From a virus, in the IMG/VR virus record IMGVR_UViG_3300023174_000087, positions 1-64,000 of that record: a stretch of 64,000 nucleotides of DNA. The stretch is one strand, 5' to 3'. Shown here in pieces: positions 853-17,958 of the stretch (position 1 is the first letter of the stretch; each line of letters starts with the position of its first letter). A program made the position numbers and the translations under genes. The notes beneath the pieces were generated by a model. It had not been told where the DNA came from. It saw nothing but the letters and a program-made list of their open reading frames with translations, and ran no database searches.

Positions 853-880
853 GAATGGTTTGCATGGTTTGTCAATATTG

Positions 881-951
881 CTTCAGGTGAAGGAATCGGA
901 CCTTCATTATCAGTTTCGGAAACTGCTCTACGGCCACTATAGTAACCTGAA
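881..951 (-). tRNA. tRNA-Arg (anticodon CCG), slightly atypical
   Basis: On the minus strand this folds as a cloverleaf. The 7-bp acceptor stem is perfect (TTCAGGT with ACCTGAA), the D loop contains GG, and the T stem is perfect (GAAGG with CCTTC). The anticodon loop is TTCCGAA, giving anticodon CCG at 917-919 (reads CGG, Arg). Odd points: the T loop is TCCGATT rather than TTCRANN, the outer anticodon-stem pair is G-A, and CCA is not encoded. A tRNA-scan score would decide whether it is functional. Confidence 0.7.
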
Positions 952-995
952 TTAACTTTCAGTATAGCACTGATATAGGTTCCGTGCAAAAAAAG

Positions 996-1049
996 TTATC
1001 CACAGGTTTTATATCCTTAAAATGTTAGTTATACACAGGTTTATCCACA
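996..1049. promoter_or_regulatory. cluster of three DnaA-box-like sites
   Basis: TTATCCACA occurs at 996-1004 and 1041-1049 and TTATACACA at 1029-1037, all in the same orientation. TTATCCACA is the consensus bacterial DnaA box. The cluster sits at the edge of the AT-rich repeat region and just upstream of the tRNA-Arg. Confidence 0.65.
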
Positions 1050-1195
1050 GATAAATGTTACTGATTATGTTGTTTGACATTCTAGAAGTGGAGTATTGTG
1101 GAGGATAGTGGAGTACTGAGCATTTTCATGAAGGGCGTCGTAATCCCAACGGGCCAAACCCCATATCCAAACATCTTATACCATATATCCAAACC

Positions 1196-1668
1196 TTTGT
1201 CAAACCTTATATCTCATATGCCCGATAGCGGATTATATACCAAACATTAGTGTTTGTCAAGTTCAAATTGATACAATTTGATGTGACAATTTTCTACGAA
1301 TTTGTCGATAAATAAAAGAAAACCCTTATAAAAATATATAAAGGTTTGATAATGTTTTATAAATCAGGAAAAAGTTATTGTCTTCGTAATACTATGTTTA
1401 TCTATAGAGGTTTGAGTGATTTACTTTTTGATCCCCGCCTGCAGCGGGATCTTCGATAGGATTATTAGACATGGCCACGGCAGGGGATTCAGTAAAATAC
1501 TTACCCAAACCTATAGCAACAGTAAAGGAAGTAAAAGCATTAGCCAAATCCTGATCTTGTTGTCTTGCCATTTTAGGATTAAGCATTCTTGAAAAATGTC
1601 TTGGGCTCATACATTTATTATACACCTATTTGACAAACAAAGGTTTGTATGATATAAGGTTTGACAAA
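1196..1668. repeat. 18-bp perfect inverted repeat pair (arms 1196-1213 and 1651-1668)
   Basis: TTTGTCAAACCTTATATC at 1196-1213 recurs in reverse complement at 1651-1668. The two arms bracket the small ORF 1398-1610. Neighbouring sequence is also partly conserved (CAAACCTTTG on both sides). It may be a binding-site pair for a replication or partition protein. Confidence 0.6.
1398..1610 (-). CDS. small hypothetical protein inside the origin-like region
   Basis: This 70-residue ORF starts MSPRHFSRMLNPKMARQQDQ. I chose the ATG at 1610, not the earlier in-frame ATG at 1625, because TATAAT (1617-1622) overlaps the latter and sits exactly 6 nt before 1610. The C-terminal half is Pro/Asn-rich and probably disordered. 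Lying between the arms of an inverted repeat, it could encode an origin-linked protein, but nothing in it identifies a function. Confidence 0.5.
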   Translation of the reverse strand: MSPRHFSRMLNPKMARQQDQDLANAFTSFTVAIGLGKYFTESPAVAMSNNPIEDPAAGGDQKVNHSNLYR

Positions 1669-1685
1669 ACAATGTTTGTCTGGTA

Positions 1686-1770
1686 TGGGGAAAAGAATTT
1701 GTCTTTCGTAATCTTTATTTGAGAAAATTGTTTGTCCATGATTGGGGAAAAGGATTTGATCTTCGTAATC
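1686..1770. repeat. tandem iteron-like repeat, 57-bp period
   Basis: TGGGGAAAAG...TTTGTCTTTCGTAATC begins at 1686 and a near copy begins at 1743. A third, more diverged copy lies at about 1365-1390 (GGAAAAAG...GTCTTCGTAAT). All three are in the same orientation. Confidence 0.55.
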
Positions 1771-1859
1771 TTGTTTGGATATAATGTTTGACATGTCCGA
1801 TATGTCCGAATTCACGTCCCACACCCCCAGGCTTTTGTCAAGCCCAGGGGAATGTAAAA

Positions 1860-2162
1860 CTATTCTGTTTCTTCTGTGTTCTGTTTCTTATTATAAGCAA
1901 AAATCAAAATTGCACTAAGGTTTACTTCAGGCAAAACATCAATCTCTTGCTCTGATATATTTAACAACTGTAAAAACATCTTGAAGGTTTCTTCTAGCAT
2001 TTCCTCACCAACAGGAGATAACTCACTAATTAGTCCTTCTGCTACCATATATGCTAATGGACAACCTAGGTCGTTATATTCCATAAATGCCGTGAAATCT
2101 TCGTCATTACGAAACTCAATCCATAACTGACCAATAATGCCAGCCTTGTTTGCTAATTCCAT
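1860..2162 (-). CDS. hypothetical protein
   Basis: This 100-residue acidic protein (MELANKAGIIGQLWIEFRND...) has no recognised domain. It is read with the upstream 73-residue gene: the upstream stop and this ATG share a base (TAATG). Predicted helices in the middle (EEMLEETFKMFLQLL) suggest a small soluble fold. The charged tail is low complexity. It is the last gene of its operon before the repeat-rich region. Confidence 0.65.
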   Translation of the reverse strand: MELANKAGIIGQLWIEFRNDEDFTAFMEYNDLGCPLAYMVAEGLISELSPVGEEMLEETFKMFLQLLNISEQEIDVLPEVNLSAILIFAYNKKQNTEETE

Positions 2163-4691: not shown

Positions 4692-5714
4692 TTATGCGAG
4701 AGACATTACGCCTTGCACAACTTTTAGTAAGCGATTTTTTTCTGCGTTGATAGCAGGGTCAAATCCACTCGCACTTGCAAGAATAGACTCGTTAGAACCA
4801 CCACGAGCAGAACGATACCAGTCAAGGCGCTCAGTTAGTGCATTGAACGCACCCCAAGCATTGCCAGCAATCATTCCATTGAATTCACCAGTGTAAATAT
4901 CATTGATTACATCAACTTTATTTTCCCACTTTTTGAAAGCACCCTTAGCATCTTTTTCTGGCTTAGGATAAGCAGCAAGAATGATTTTGTTGAAATCAAT
5001 CGCATTGACTTCTTTTTCAATCATTGCCTTAGCCATAGTATCAAATTCGTCCATGTAAGCATTAGCAAGACCAAGAGTCTCACGAGCAATTTGCACCTTG
5101 CCATTAGCAGTTTGTGTATGACGAATTTTGAATGATTGCTTGATGCCCTTGTTCTTCTTGCGACCAACGCCACCAAGAGCAAGGTTTAGAGTATTAGCGC
5201 ACACAACACGAACGGGTGTTATGCTTGCTTGAATAGCGATTGAGCCATCGTGTGATGTATTGATGAGCAAATAAGTTTTTACCTTATCAGATACACCATT
5301 AGGGTCAAGAATTGTTTCACGCTCAAGAGCAAGAGCGCCAAATACTACACGCCCACCCTTGATTGAGCCAGCAGTCTCCCAACGACCTCCGCCGTCTAGG
5401 ATATTATCACCAAATGAAAATAAATCTTCATTCTGCAATACATGGTAGCGCTCACCAACTACGCCAAGAATATCGGTTTGTGTATTGTCGGTAGGGTTTG
5501 TTCGCAATACATATTGATAGTTTTTGTCGCTTGTTAGATGTGATGGGGTTTCCAAATCTTCAAGACGAACATTCCAACCATTGAGACTTGCAGCCTCTAA
5601 CATTTCTGCGGTTGTTTTTTCTTCTGTGAATACGGTTCCCAATCCATGCCAAGCAGGTTCACGGAAAGATGCAAAAGATGTTTTTCCGTTTTGTATTTCT
5701 AGGTCATGTGCCAT
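4692..5714 (-). CDS. DUF932 family protein
   Basis: This 340-residue protein matches the DUF932 (phage/plasmid-like) family in length and in motifs I recall: an N-terminal PAWHGLGT segment, GVVGERYHVLQNEDLFSF near residue 90, and RVVCANTLNLAL near residue 178. The family is widespread in phages and plasmids of many bacteria. A role in DNA metabolism or anti-restriction has been suggested but not established. It has its own TGTCRG-type promoter (5752-5775) and is followed by a stop-associated hairpin and the tRNA-Asp. Confidence 0.88.
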   Translation of the reverse strand: MAHDLEIQNGKTSFASFREPAWHGLGTVFTEEKTTAEMLEAASLNGWNVRLEDLETPSHLTSDKNYQYVLRTNPTDNTQTDILGVVGERYHVLQNEDLFSFGDNILDGGGRWETAGSIKGGRVVFGALALERETILDPNGVSDKVKTYLLINTSHDGSIAIQASITPVRVVCANTLNLALGGVGRKKNKGIKQSFKIRHTQTANGKVQIARETLGLANAYMDEFDTMAKAMIEKEVNAIDFNKIILAAYPKPEKDAKGAFKKWENKVDVINDIYTGEFNGMIAGNAWGAFNALTERLDWYRSARGGSNESILASASGFDPAINAEKNRLLKVVQGVMSLA

Positions 5715-6591: not shown

Positions 6592-6627
6592 TCGTTTTAG
6601 GAGAGGCTCTGAACCCCTTACCCTAAA

Positions 6628-7050
6628 TTATAGGTAGCGAGCCACCGCATTGTATGTAGAAGTATTTACAACTTCCTCATCTGTCATTTTGAGAATACGA
6701 ATTGCGTTAGTCATTTCGTCTTTCATCTCACGATAAGTGTGAGAGTGAATTACCTCAAAATCTTTTTCAGGTTCTGTTGGGAAGTTTCCTTCTTTTACTG
6801 TAATGTCAAAATCAACATTGAGGTTATTGTTCCAAGAGCGATAGTTTGTTCGTAGGTTTTCAGCCTTTGAGAAGTTAGCAATAGCCCACTCACCAATTTG
6901 CTTTTTCCAAGCCTCATAAGTAAGTTTGTATTGTGCTTCTTTTGCTTCTTGTGTTGCGTAGTCCATCTCTAACTTTGCTAGTGATGTTTCTAGTCCTGCG
7001 ATTACTCGTTGAGTAGGGATTTTTACTGAGATTGCTTTGCCTCTTGCCAT
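6628..7050 (-). CDS. conserved hypothetical protein
   Basis: This 140-residue protein (MARGKAISVKIPTQRVIAGL...) is mostly helical: an N-terminal coiled coil around residues 18-50, then LTYEAWKKQIGEWAIANFSK. Similar short proteins are familiar from actinophages without a known function. The start has AGAAAAGAGAAA upstream. It may be co-transcribed from the promoter at 7340-7363 through the hairpin at 7098-7122. Confidence 0.7.
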   Translation of the reverse strand: MARGKAISVKIPTQRVIAGLETSLAKLEMDYATQEAKEAQYKLTYEAWKKQIGEWAIANFSKAENLRTNYRSWNNNLNVDFDITVKEGNFPTEPEKDFEVIHSHTYREMKDEMTNAIRILKMTDEEVVNTSTYNAVARYL

Positions 7051-7097
7051 TTGTATTTCTCTTTTCTGTTTGTGGGTTATTTTTTAGGGGGTTTGTT

Positions 7098-7122
7098 TGA
7101 GCAGTTTTACATCTTGCTCAGG
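7098..7122. repeat. stop-associated inverted repeat, copy 5
   Basis: TGAGCAGTTTTACATCTTGCTCAGG lies 19 nt after the stop of the 7142-7306 gene and about 48 nt before the next ATG. Confidence 0.6.
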
Positions 7123-7141
7123 ATAGTTTCTCAGGTGAGAA

Positions 7142-7306
7142 TTACTTAGATGTCCAAGTTGTGTAACGAATTGTTCCATCAACATTGAGTTTTACACGAA
7201 CATTTCCATTTGCTTGTGGAGTGATTTCCTGAATTGTTCCTGTAACCTTTGACTTCTGTGTTGTGTAGAGGTCGCCTACCTTGTATGTGTTTGTTGCTAC
7301 TGACAT
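7142..7306 (-). CDS. small SH3-like/beta-barrel-type hypothetical protein
   Basis: This 54-residue protein (MSVATNTYKVGDLYTTQKSK...) alternates short strands (VGDLY, VTGTIQEI, VRVKLN, IRYTTW), suggesting a small beta barrel. I chose the ATG at 7306 because it follows an AAAGGAG ribosome binding site and the TGTCRG promoter at 7340-7363. An in-frame ATG at 7420 would add 38 residues and has its own leaderless-type TATTAT box (7427-7432), so two products are possible. Confidence 0.6.
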   Translation of the reverse strand: MSVATNTYKVGDLYTTQKSKVTGTIQEITPQANGNVRVKLNVDGTIRYTTWTSK

Positions 7307-7339
7307 TTTTGTTTCTCCTTTTGTTTGGTTGATAATCCA

Positions 7340-7363
7340 AGTATAACATTTCCTACTGACATT
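7340..7363 (-). promoter_or_regulatory. TGTCRG-N10 promoter for the 7142-7306 gene
   Basis: Leftward AATGTCAG-N10-TATACT, about 33 nt before the ATG at 7306. Confidence 0.65.
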
Positions 7364-7470
7364 TCGCAAGTCAGCCAAGAAAAATCTCACATCTTGGACT
7401 ACGGGGGTTGTTTTGTTCATAACTTAATAATAGCAAATAAATGTCATAAATACAAATCATAAATAGGATA

Positions 7471-7550
7471 AATCGGACATTGCTATGTGAGAAACATCAC
7501 AAAAAATATGCGTGTCGTAACTTGACAAATGGGGGTCGGCGGGACGTCCC
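7471..7550. promoter_or_regulatory. AATGTCC, CRP-like, GCGTGTCG and GGGACGTCCC cluster
   Basis: AATGTCCGATT on the minus strand (7471-7481), a perfect TGTGA-N6-TCACA palindrome (7486-7501), GCGTGTCG (7510-7517) and a perfect GGGACGTCCC palindrome (7541-7550). The order matches the gap at 5804-5889. Confidence 0.6.
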
Positions 7551-7568
7551 AAAATTCCAGGGGATCTG

Positions 7569-7640
7569 CTAGGACCCACTAGAACCAAGGAGTGCACTCA
7601 GAGTTATAGTTACAATAAATAACCAAAATAAAATATTCAT
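7569..7640 (-). CDS. tiny membrane protein
   Basis: This 23-residue peptide, MNILFWLFIVTITLSALLGS plus three residues, is one hydrophobic helix. The ATG directly follows the stop of the GP88 gene, so translation is probably coupled. A similar tiny membrane ORF lies at 11302-11403. A membrane role is inferred from hydrophobicity only. Confidence 0.5.
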   Translation of the reverse strand: MNILFWLFIVTITLSALLGSSGS

Positions 7641-8375
7641 TTATTTTTTACTTGCGCTAAATATAACATCACTCTTAGAGTATACACACAATGAACAAGA
7701 AACGCAAGCGCTACCGTTATTTGAAATAAGTGGAATTTGTTTATTATTCTCAGGACACTTAGCAGCAGGGCGCCCGATCATTTCTTTCATATCTGCTTGA
7801 CCAATAGCAAAGTTTTTAGCAAGGTATGCAAGGCGCACACCAGAATTAATCTTTAGGTCAACGCCTACCTTTACATTCTCGCTATCAGTACTAAAGTAAA
7901 GAGACAGGTTATCAATATCTTTTAGCATAAGGGCTGCAGATTGTACACGAGTGTATACCCAAAATTGAATATCAGTATTGTTTAGGATGACATTCTTCCA
8001 GGCCTGCGTATACGTATCGTTGAAGAAATCTCCGTCCCAGTGGATACGAAATAGCATAGGGGCGTCTTTCTTGATACAGTCTGCCTTGAAATCATTTATC
8101 ATATCAGTAAGCAGGTCCTGCATAGTATCTTGATCAGCGTCTTTTAGTAATTCCCAATTATGTAATAGGTTAGCCTTTACACCCTTGAAGAGTTTTTCGA
8201 GTTTACCTGCATAGCAGACACTCTCGCAAACAGTCGTTGCGCCAGGGCAAGAATAAGCCTTTCCTGCAGGGAGACCGAATGTGTTAGCAATTGCGGCTTG
8301 CTTTCCATTTTTTGTGACAAGGTTAGCCACCTTTCTATCATTAGAGCGTTTTAGTGTAAGTGTATTAGTAGTCAA
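7641..8375 (-). CDS. GP88-family (gene product 88-like) cysteine-rich protein
   Basis: This 244-residue protein has a Cys cluster near residues 43-55 (SCPGATTVCESVCYAGK) after an LPAGKAY segment and a C-terminal CVSCSLC cluster. The pattern matches the phage/plasmid family I recall as gene product 88 (Pfam GP88), whose fold and cysteines suggest metal or Fe-S binding. The biochemical role is not established. The likely start is TTG at 8375, overlapping the upstream stop by 11 nt. No in-frame ATG lies near the N-terminus. Confidence 0.7.
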   Translation of the reverse strand: MTTNTLTLKRSNDRKVANLVTKNGKQAAIANTFGLPAGKAYSCPGATTVCESVCYAGKLEKLFKGVKANLLHNWELLKDADQDTMQDLLTDMINDFKADCIKKDAPMLFRIHWDGDFFNDTYTQAWKNVILNNTDIQFWVYTRVQSAALMLKDIDNLSLYFSTDSENVKVGVDLKINSGVRLAYLAKNFAIGQADMKEMIGRPAAKCPENNKQIPLISNNGSACVSCSLCVYSKSDVIFSASKK

Positions 8376-11125: not shown

Positions 11126-11216
11126 TTTATTTGCTTAGGCTCATTAGCCAAACTGTCCTTTATTTATTTATAAGAAAATACTATCAGAGAAATGTCAAAA
11201 AGTCAAATTATTTCTC

Positions 11217-11279
11217 GGCGTGTCGGGTATGAGTTACATCACATTAGTTATACACAGCCTGTGGATAACTCCACGTCCC
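11217..11279. promoter_or_regulatory. GCGTGTCG, CRP-like site and inverted DnaA-box pair
   Basis: GGCGTGTCG at 11217-11225, a one-mismatch CRP-like site at 11228-11243, TTATACACA (11248-11256) facing TGTGGATAA (11260-11268) as an inverted DnaA-box pair, then CACGTCCC (11272-11279). Confidence 0.55.
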
Positions 11280-11301
11280 ATTTTTTGCAGGGAAATTAAA
11301 T

Positions 11302-11403
11302 TTATTCTTTTACGAATAAATAAAATCCACTAAGTAAACAGATCATACAGAACCAGAATAGTGCATTACCACTTGCAAAGAATGTTTGATAAAAGTTATT
11401 CAT
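11302..11403 (-). CDS. tiny membrane protein
   Basis: This 33-residue peptide beginning MNNFYQTFFASGNALFWFCM carries one hydrophobic helix. Its ATG overlaps the stop of the upstream gene by one base. It resembles the 23-residue ORF at 7569-7640 in size, placement and hydrophobicity. Confidence 0.5.
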   Translation of the reverse strand: MNNFYQTFFASGNALFWFCMICLLSGFYLFVKE

Positions 11404-11567
11404 TATTTTTTATCCTTGTATAAAAAATCCCAAGCCTTACGGCATAACACAATAGACTTACAGTTATCGCAACAGATAACACCGTGAGGGTTTAGGTCTA
11501 AGTCATAGATGTCTATGCTAGTGCTCACCGCACCGCATACTGATTTGATAGGTACATAGGTACTCAT
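11403..11567 (-). CDS. small Cys-rich protein
   Basis: This 54-residue protein contains VICCDNCKSIVLCRKAWDF, a probable zinc site, and one further Cys near residue 11. It overlaps the upstream gene by 4 nt. The function is unknown. Confidence 0.6.
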   Translation of the reverse strand: MSTYVPIKSVCGAVSTSIDIYDLDLNPHGVICCDNCKSIVLCRKAWDFLYKDKK

Positions 11568-11740
11568 TTAGATACATTCCAATCAGTCCACATAGGTAGA
11601 CGCTCAGGGTCGGTATCGTTATACCAACGCTCAATGTTATTTTCACACTCAGTACAGAATGTGTATTGTGTATCTGATACCTCAGAGATAGCAGATACCA
11701 TAGGTGTATGCTCTTTACATACTGTTATTAGTATAGTCAT
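11564..11740 (-). CDS. small zinc-ribbon-like protein
   Basis: This 58-residue protein has VCKEH near the N-terminus and FCTECENNIERW in the middle, a C-x2-H plus C-x2-C arrangement. Similar short proteins are, as I recall, common in actinophages. It is coupled to its neighbours. Confidence 0.65.
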   Translation of the reverse strand: MTILITVCKEHTPMVSAISEVSDTQYTFCTECENNIERWYNDTDPERLPMWTDWNVSK

Positions 11741-11913
11741 TATTTGACCACCTTTCCTAGTAAATTGTGTTCGGTATAGTTACCGCCACACATTGTGCAG
11801 AGTGACCAAGCGGTTACTCTACCGCAACCTGCTGAGCAGGATACATAGCCAAGACGCTTAGCGTCACTTTCATTAGTGTAATCATTTACACTTTCCCAAA
11901 TACGATTTGTCAT
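11740..11913 (-). CDS. small zinc-ribbon-like protein
   Basis: This 57-residue protein begins MTNRIWESVNDYTNESDAKR and has CSAGCG and CTMCGG pairs, a classic zinc ribbon. I chose the ATG at 11913, which follows AGAAAGGTC, over the longer in-frame ORF from 11949. It is the first gene of the leftward block nearest the control region. Confidence 0.65.
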   Translation of the reverse strand: MTNRIWESVNDYTNESDAKRLGYVSCSAGCGRVTAWSLCTMCGGNYTEHNLLGKVVK

Positions 11914-11965
11914 TTTATTGACCTTTCTAAGTTTGATAACCTTTATCAACTTTCTTTATACTAGA

Positions 11966-11989
11966 AGTATAACAGGGGGGTCTGACATT
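11966..11989 (-). promoter_or_regulatory. TGTCRG-N10 promoter for the 11302-11913 operon
   Basis: Leftward AATGTCAG-N10-TATACT, about 50 nt before the ATG at 11913. Confidence 0.65.
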
Positions 11990-12011
11990 TATGGGTGTAC
12001 AAAACGCATAA

Positions 12012-12143
12012 AACGGACATTTGGGATTGTGATGTAGGTCATGTGGATAACTTACGCTCAATTATGAATGTGATGTGTACCATGTGGATAACTTCACGTT
12101 CAAATGTCCGATTTGTCTTATATGTACTGTGGTGTATATCACA
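12012..12143. promoter_or_regulatory. divergent control region with two DnaA boxes and CRP-like sites
   Basis: It holds AATGTCCGTTT (minus, about 12012-12021), CRP-like half sites at 12028 and 12069, DnaA boxes TGTGGATAA at 12042-12050 and 12083-12091, AATGTCCGATTT (plus, 12103-12114) and a one-mismatch CRP-like site at 12128-12143. It separates the leftward and rightward early operons and is partly symmetric. Confidence 0.55.
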
Positions 12144-12164
12144 TGCGACACGCCGTGTTAGAAC

Positions 12165-12193
12165 TTGACTTTTGGGGTTAGGTATGCTAGAAT
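12165..12193 (+). promoter_or_regulatory. rightward promoter for the 12243 gene
   Basis: TTGACT-N17-TAGAAT, preceded by GCGACACGCC. The leader to the ATG at 12243 is about 43 nt. Confidence 0.7.
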
Positions 12194-16927: not shown

Positions 16928-17511
16928 TGGCAAATTTATATTCTTCAGATGACATTACTGTTTTGGGTGGACCATCAACAATAAATATTGATTTAGACTT
17001 TGGACCAACTGGTCAAAGAGGAAGCAAGTTCTTTGTTGGTAATGGAAACCCAAACTCTACTCCAAGCCCAATTTCAACATCTATTCCTCTTTTTGTTTTT
17101 GACATGTATTTAAATCTTAACCCTGCAACTAGTGAGTATAGGTCCTTATACCAATACCAAAATGTTTCAGGAACAAATACTTGGGTCAAATTAATTAATT
17201 TAATTCCAAATATTTATAGTTTAAACATTTCTTTAAATTTTGTTAATGGCATTGCTTCTACTACGCTTCCAGTTATTAGTCTTGTAGACTCTGATCAAGT
17301 ATCATCTATCACTGCCTCAAGATTTAATGTTCAGCACTCTTTGGTTAACAATGGAAAGCCAAACATGACAGATGTTACAGTATCAGAAATAGTTGTTGCT
17401 GATGGAACAAGGGTTTTGCCTTTATCTTTTTCTGCTTATCAGTTAAATAATGGAATTATAGAAAGTGTTACAGGTCAGAAGATGGTCCATATCTTTATTT
17501 CTGTGGTATAA
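16927..17511 (+). CDS. putative minor tail/fibre protein
   Basis: This 194-residue beta-rich protein has LDFGPTGQRGSKFFVGNGNP near the N-terminus, a short Gly-rich segment like those in tail-tip proteins. Like the collagen-like protein, its C-terminus ends in ISVV. No catalytic motif is visible. It is coupled to the 16565 gene. Confidence 0.6.
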   Translation: MANLYSSDDITVLGGPSTINIDLDFGPTGQRGSKFFVGNGNPNSTPSPISTSIPLFVFDMYLNLNPATSEYRSLYQYQNVSGTNTWVKLINLIPNIYSLNISLNFVNGIASTTLPVISLVDSDQVSSITASRFNVQHSLVNNGKPNMTDVTVSEIVVADGTRVLPLSFSAYQLNNGIIESVTGQKMVHIFISVV

Positions 17512-17529
17512 TTTTGGGGGAGATGACAA

Positions 17530-17958
17530 ATGGCTGAAGATATTAATCCTACTGGACCCTATAACACAAAAGTGCCTGGCTATAACGAGGCTGCTGATAT
17601 TCAACAGGCTTTAAAATTGTTCCTATATGGAACTACAACCCTACCCTCAACAACTTCCGAAATTCAATCAGCATCATTAGCGGGTAACTTAAAAAGAATA
17701 GATGCAAGCATTGAAACATTAAACAATAAGGGCATTGGTTCAGCAATTGCAGCAAGCCAACCAACAGGAATAACAAATGGTCATATTTGGGTAGATTCAA
17801 CAAGTTCTGTTACATCAGGTGTTCAATATGCAACATCTTCATATCAAATATCTGCACCAGCATCTCCTAGCACAGGTGCTTTGTGGGTTGATTCAGATAC
17901 CACACCATTAAAAATGTATGTTTGGTCTGGTTCTGCATGGAGAGAGATTGGTGCATAA
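17530..17958 (+). CDS. putative tail fibre protein
   Basis: This 142-residue protein contains two similar segments of the kind GHIWVDSTSSVTSGVQYATS and GALWVDSDTTPLKMYVWSGS, a tandem of the small repeat often seen in phage fibres (x-LWVDSDT-x-x-x-Y-x-W). TATAAT at 17507-17512 and GGGGGAG give a promoter and ribosome binding site. Confidence 0.6.
   Translation: MAEDINPTGPYNTKVPGYNEAADIQQALKLFLYGTTTLPSTTSEIQSASLAGNLKRIDASIETLNNKGIGSAIAASQPTGITNGHIWVDSTSSVTSGVQYATSSYQISAPASPSTGALWVDSDTTPLKMYVWSGSAWREIGA

Follow-up and report, generated by a model that had tools for sequence, protein, structure and literature searches.

A conserved non-coding region of a Stanwilliamsviridae-related phage carries a putative MraZ-type operator, DnaA boxes and outward-facing consensus promoters

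Introduction

Phages are known to borrow the operators of their hosts. MraZ, the regulator of the division operon (dcw, division and cell wall), occurs widely, and what it does is a matter of continuing debate. In Burkholderia, MraZ sites consist of four 7-nt repeats with 3-nt spacers and a 10-bp period (PMC7761207), and in the Mollicutes the site is (AAAGTGKN3)3 (PMC5282649). Among open-access papers, we came across none that describes an MraZ operator in a phage.

The locus described here resembles the MraZ operator of the dcw operon in having three GTGGAG-type units, an exact 10-bp period, and A/T-rich spacers. In hosts, such arrays sit shortly upstream of mraZ and overlap the promoter core, whereas the phage array has neither mraZ nor a division gene behind it, and the phage promoters lie beyond the array and are aimed at it from the other side. 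Like phage early control regions with divergent consensus promoters, the locus has near-perfect promoters facing outward from an AT-rich center, but its neighboring genes are not divergent operons, and putative sites for host division and replication proteins lie within the predicted leader. Tandem TTATCCACA boxes 2–3 bp apart, with repeated motifs nearby, recall the DnaA clusters of chromosomal and plasmid origins. Unlike those clusters, the phage has only two or three boxes and no skew switch, and the boxes are absent in most of a more distant clade. The large non-coding gap of the Streptomyces phage Gilson (Stanwilliamsviridae; 120291–122053) is similar in having a related phage gene order, three DnaA boxes, a GTGCGTAATGTG motif, and two ATCGTAAAGGGG repeats. 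The same scans found neither a GTGGAG array nor a sigma-70 consensus promoter in the Gilson gap, in contrast to the locus studied here.

Results

The window, which is the whole stretch of DNA analyzed, comprises bases 1–64,000 of a virus record of 115,201 bases. Its portal protein has 46% identity over 98% to Gilson-type Streptomyces phages (Stanwilliamsviridae), and its gene order is related to theirs. With both similar structural proteins and a similar gene order, the phage is classed as Stanwilliamsviridae-related. The record encodes RNR, a large DNA polymerase, a UvsX-like recombinase, a terminase, and a WhiB protein. Due to the likeness of the portal protein to Streptomyces phages and the presence of WhiB and the other proteins, the host is very probably an actinobacterium, and the low GC content (36%) suggests a low-GC member of this group. 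The MraZ-type site described below also favors an actinobacterial host. A direct DNA search with the region against 50,697 phage records gave no match. In sequence L088, three proteins (6609–7845 and 17002–17649) match the same phage families (PHROG 61, 2297, and 274, named 2OG-Fe(II) oxygenase and endonuclease V) and form a repeated gene family.

An earlier note had proposed that positions 952–1860 hold a replication origin or a centromere. The features of this region and its left neighbor are as follows.

880–951, minus strand: tRNA-Arg(CCG), leftward; the neighbor at this place varies among relatives
996–1004, plus strand: outer DnaA box TTATCCACA; many relatives have a box at -89 to -114 from the array
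1029–1049, plus strand: tandem DnaA boxes TTATACACA (1029–1037) and TTATCCACA (1041–1049), 3 bp apart
1058–1065, plus strand: TTACTGAT, conserved between the DnaA boxes and the array in an alignment of relatives
1088–1113, plus strand: putative MraZ-type operator, GTGGAG-TATT-GTGGAG-GATA-GTGGAG, three units with a 10-bp period
1138–1144, plus strand: TCGTAAT motif, copy 1
1175–1203, minus strand: predicted leftward promoter, TTGACA-17-TATAAG, 11/12 matches
1196–1213, plus strand: left arm of the 18-bp inverted repeat, within the leftward promoter module
1232–1260, minus strand: predicted leftward promoter, TTGACA-17-TATAAT, 12/12 matches
1367–1390, plus strand: GGAAAA...TCGTAAT motif, copy 2
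1398–1610, minus strand: small ORF of about 70 aa, probably leaderless, outside the conserved core
1630–1658, plus strand: predicted rightward promoter, TTGACA-17-TATAAG, 11/12 matches
1651–1668, plus strand: right arm of the 18-bp inverted repeat
1687–1712 (approximate), plus strand: GGGGAAAA...TCGTAAT motif, copy 3
1744–1769, plus strand: GGGGAAAA...TCGTAAT motif, copy 4

The sequence elements named in the earlier note are present. The three DnaA-type boxes all lie on the plus strand within 54 bp, the last two of the three GGAAAA...TCGTAAT repeats are 57 bp apart, and the inverted repeat is perfect over 18 bp, with TTTGTCAAACCTTATATC at 1196 and its complement at 1651, 455 bp from start to start. 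The single ORF inside the region runs from an ATG at 1610 to a stop at 1398–1400. It was called leaderless, which fits since a TATAAT lies only about 10 bp before its ATG; in some relatives this ORF is exchanged for other sequence. The AT content of the region is just slightly above that of the window (GC 35.1% vs 36.5%). The GTGGAG array and all three promoters of the region had been missed.

Chance occurrence was assessed by simulating the region 2000 times with a first-order Markov model. None of the 2000 simulations contained three DnaA boxes in a 54-bp span, four TCGTAAT motifs in the forward direction, or the triple GTGGAG array, and an 18-bp inverted repeat arose in 23/2000. The DnaA triple and the TCGTAAT copies are far more than chance would give, the inverted repeat less so. 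The inverted repeat was rejected as a conserved element, as it is not kept in relatives, and it reads as promoter modules (TATAAG/TTGACA) that meet in opposite orientation on the two sides.

A collection of bacterial genomes was searched for exact GTGGAGN4GTGGAGN4GTGGAG without reference to mraZ, which returned at least 80 loci. Among the matches listed for this exact triple, an mraZ gene starts 0–106 bp downstream on the same strand in 54 of 80. The gene is present in 34 of 37 small actinobacterial genomes. A matrix built from the phage arrays alone was run on 30 loci of small actinobacterial genomes, and in 30/30 its best match lay on the mraZ strand, 60–131 bp upstream of the gene. Of two control matrices, the one built from the DnaA part did so in 0/30 and the one built from sequence following the array in 1/30; about 1 in 28 is expected by position alone. 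The phage array thus shares its sequence with the mraZ leaders of plausible hosts, and it has the three GTG-core repeats at a 10-bp period that are typical of such sites. No MraZ domain was found in the phage record and no mraZ gene in distant relatives. Since the phage has no MraZ domain and other genes follow the array, it is a site of the MraZ type rather than an mraZ/dcw promoter. The array is apparently an operator that MraZ would bind, and one array per genome is seen in 10 large phage contigs. Many actinobacterial genomes (G171, G261, G388, G200, G119, and others) carry two inverted GTGGAGN4GTGGAG arrays about 90–280 bp apart, which suggests a second MraZ-controlled gene divergent from mraZ.

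Relatives of the window were gathered using a neighboring protein (window 4692–5714) as the query. This gave 80 relatives, and the region is present in 63 of them, which form 54 distinct blocks including the window; most of the other 17 end before the region. The order is constant across the 54 blocks: DnaA boxes (in most), TTACTGA, GTGGAG-type units with a 10-bp period, and TCGTAAT. The tandem DnaA pair is found in 45/54, at about -59/-47 from the array. A strict GTGGAG triple is kept in 34/54 and a loose triple in 53/54. In the 900 bp that follow the array, TCGTAAT was counted 235 times in the forward direction and never in reverse, and the extended form of this directional motif is GGGGAAAA-N10-TCGTAAT. 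Across 32 small genomes, TCGTAAT gave 4 matches compared to 1 control match, and the motif is apparently phage-specific and not a host site. The earlier note had asked whether the repeats recur in relatives, and they do.

A separate pattern scan yielded 39 further distinct loci with the same features. Its pattern included the DnaA pair, TTACTGAT, and a single GTGGAG, and those parts are therefore not independent in the new loci. The strict array was found in 35/39, a promoter with at most one mismatch in 37/39, and TCGTAAT in 175 forward and 0 reverse copies. Taken as sequence, the region is a real, conserved, autonomous, non-coding cis element. Inspection by eye spoke against a conserved peptide spanning the array, as its ATG is not kept. 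A fixed packaging end was also considered; contigs end at many distances from the array and nothing was found in its favor.

A predicted leftward sigma-70 promoter with at least 11/12 matches is aimed at the array in 54/54 relatives and is perfect in 42, while shuffled sequences gave perfect promoters in 0/270. Sites of at least 11/12 matches are scarce, with only 18 in the whole 115-kb record. The spacing between promoter and array appeared helically phased with the nearest promoters (R 0.83, p 0.006) and less so with other groupings (p ~0.06); because related sequences are not independent, this becomes marginal once related values are merged and is suggestive only. Four of the 18 sites fall within 847–1658, one of them a further perfect-consensus leftward promoter at 875–847, just beyond the tRNA-Arg(CCG) gene.

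A more distant clade was found by scanning for arrays with TA in the second spacer, which gave many further phage contigs. The array was the search key and is present in these contigs by construction, which does not apply to the promoter, the motif, or the convergent setting. Contigs of this clade that hold the neighboring protein match the window's protein at about 47–64%. TTGACA (at most one mismatch) followed after 16–18 bp by TANNNT is aimed at the array in 39/62 sequences, and in 34 of these 39 promoters the -10 element lies 65–68 bp from the array. CGTAA motifs are found at about +110, +185, and +345, all in one direction. DnaA boxes are present only in a minority of the clade. The two clades have three constant parts in common, namely the MraZ-type array, a strong predicted promoter aimed at it, and a directional motif of the phages. 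The genes on either side vary: both are leftward in the window, and the array of the distant clade lies mostly between convergent genes. In one distant lineage, the chromosomal parS core GTTTCACGTGAAAC is present without mismatch, 68 bp from the array start (L223:9383–9396 and L247:10769–10782). Apart from these two, the core is exact only in L268, far from the array there.

Discussion

The reading that we favor, to which we give a chance slightly short of even, is that the region serves early control and that MraZ of the host, often along with DnaA, would act there at the leader of strong outward promoters. This reading is favored because the array, the promoter, and the motif are constant across the clades while the flanking genes vary. 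That the array and the leftward promoters unite both clades points to control of transcription. From the identity, order, conservation, and orientation of the sites, we infer binding by MraZ and DnaA, activity of the promoters, and the direction of the effect as follows. A host sigma-70-type RNA polymerase would use the two leftward promoters (1260–1175) and the rightward one (1630–1658). In the leftward leader, it would meet the MraZ operator about 60–120 bp downstream of the promoters, followed by two or three DnaA boxes. MraZ, together with DnaA in most clade members, would then most likely act as a roadblock or a repressor of early leftward transcription, and the GGGGAAAA-N10-TCGTAAT motif repeated on both sides is probably bound by a phage protein. 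Phage expression would in this way respond to the state of host division or replication, and it would shift when phage DNA titrates MraZ and DnaA.

Some findings argue against control of transcription. The orientation of the flanking genes differs between the window and the distant clade, so the leftward transcript would lack a fixed target gene, an unusual situation for simple gene control. All genes ahead of the rightward promoter run in the opposite direction. The array lies downstream of the promoter here, compared to its overlap with the promoter core in hosts. Perfect promoters without a constant downstream gene would instead suit a non-coding RNA locus, in which short untranslated RNAs would start from the outward promoters, such as CUCC-rich ones that could mask ribosome-binding sites. 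We consider this very unlikely, since no conserved secondary structure was found on either strand in the distant clade: consensus folding of 28 distant relatives gave energies near zero and essentially no structure. Rfam matched only tRNAs, and the fit of the array to mraZ operators is far more specific than would be expected of an anti-SD sequence.

Another explanation is that the region is a sponge or decoy, where multi-copy phage DNA titrates host MraZ and DnaA, and in one lineage ParB, and would disturb division and replication initiation to the benefit of the phage. The phages retain the array with no mraZ gene of their own, the array of the close clade lacks the overlapping TTGAC-16/17-TANNGT promoter of many bacterial mraZ leaders, and sites for several chromosome-cycle proteins are gathered in one place. 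These points agree with titration, but each genome has only a single array and few DnaA boxes, and titration needs no strong promoters aimed at the array from a conserved position. We think a sponge improbable. A further reading, which we rate as somewhat unlikely, is that this phage family carries a composite site that captures MraZ, usually DnaA, and in one lineage ParB via parS, and that times or disturbs host division and replication during infection. If true, the phage would read or jam the host cell cycle through DNA alone.

The proposal of an origin or centromere found both support and contradiction. In such an origin, the TCGTAAT motifs would be iterons for a phage initiator, the DnaA boxes would recruit host DnaA, the outward promoters would prime or activate bidirectional replication, and MraZ would be accessory. 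The repeats recur in relatives, the motif is directional and multi-copy like iterons, the DnaA boxes are in tandem, and their cluster is beyond chance. The region is also independent of its neighboring genes, the exact parS core occurs in one distant lineage, and DnaA boxes lie in the Gilson gap as well. Against this, no skew switch is seen near the region. Cumulative skew follows gene direction and is lowest at 15–30 kb and highest at 103–105 kb. GC3 skew of plus-strand genes in four genomes is positive left of the array and mostly negative right of it, a comparison confounded by gene class; if the leading strand is G-rich, this polarity would suit a terminus and not an origin. In the distant clade, most members lack the DnaA boxes, and the phage encodes a DNA polymerase and a UvsX-like recombinase of its own. 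The suggestion of a parS-like site failed in the window and the rest of the record, where the palindrome GTTTCACGTGAAAC is absent (up to 2 mismatches, ACGT core). Because of the skew and GC3 results and a second DnaA cluster at 11.2–12.2 kb, near a divergent gene switch, an origin at 952–1860 is possible but not favored, and we rate it as unlikely. The second cluster is the better origin candidate.

A phage lineage that retains the putative operator without its gene, opposite a consensus promoter, gives a straightforward means of asking whether infection is gated by the levels of MraZ or DnaA. The region also serves as an example of how a regulator's site can be recognized in uncultured viruses.

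The second DnaA cluster (window 11198–12173) has boxes at 11248, 11260, 12042, and 12083, 41-nt direct repeats that end in CATGTGGATAACTT, and 55-nt inverted arms (75%) with divergent promoter-like ends. It lies near the switch from minus- to plus-strand genes, and relatives have boxes at comparable places, +9 to +13 kb from their arrays. Beside the DnaA boxes of Gilson, there is also a non-coding element of about 170 nt (121049–121217; L331:31049–31217, minus strand). It was not found in plasmids and belongs to no Rfam family. The element is common to otherwise unrelated phages, namely the Streptomyces tectiviruses Forthebois, WheeHeim, and RickRoss and the group of Arthrobacter phage Amigo.
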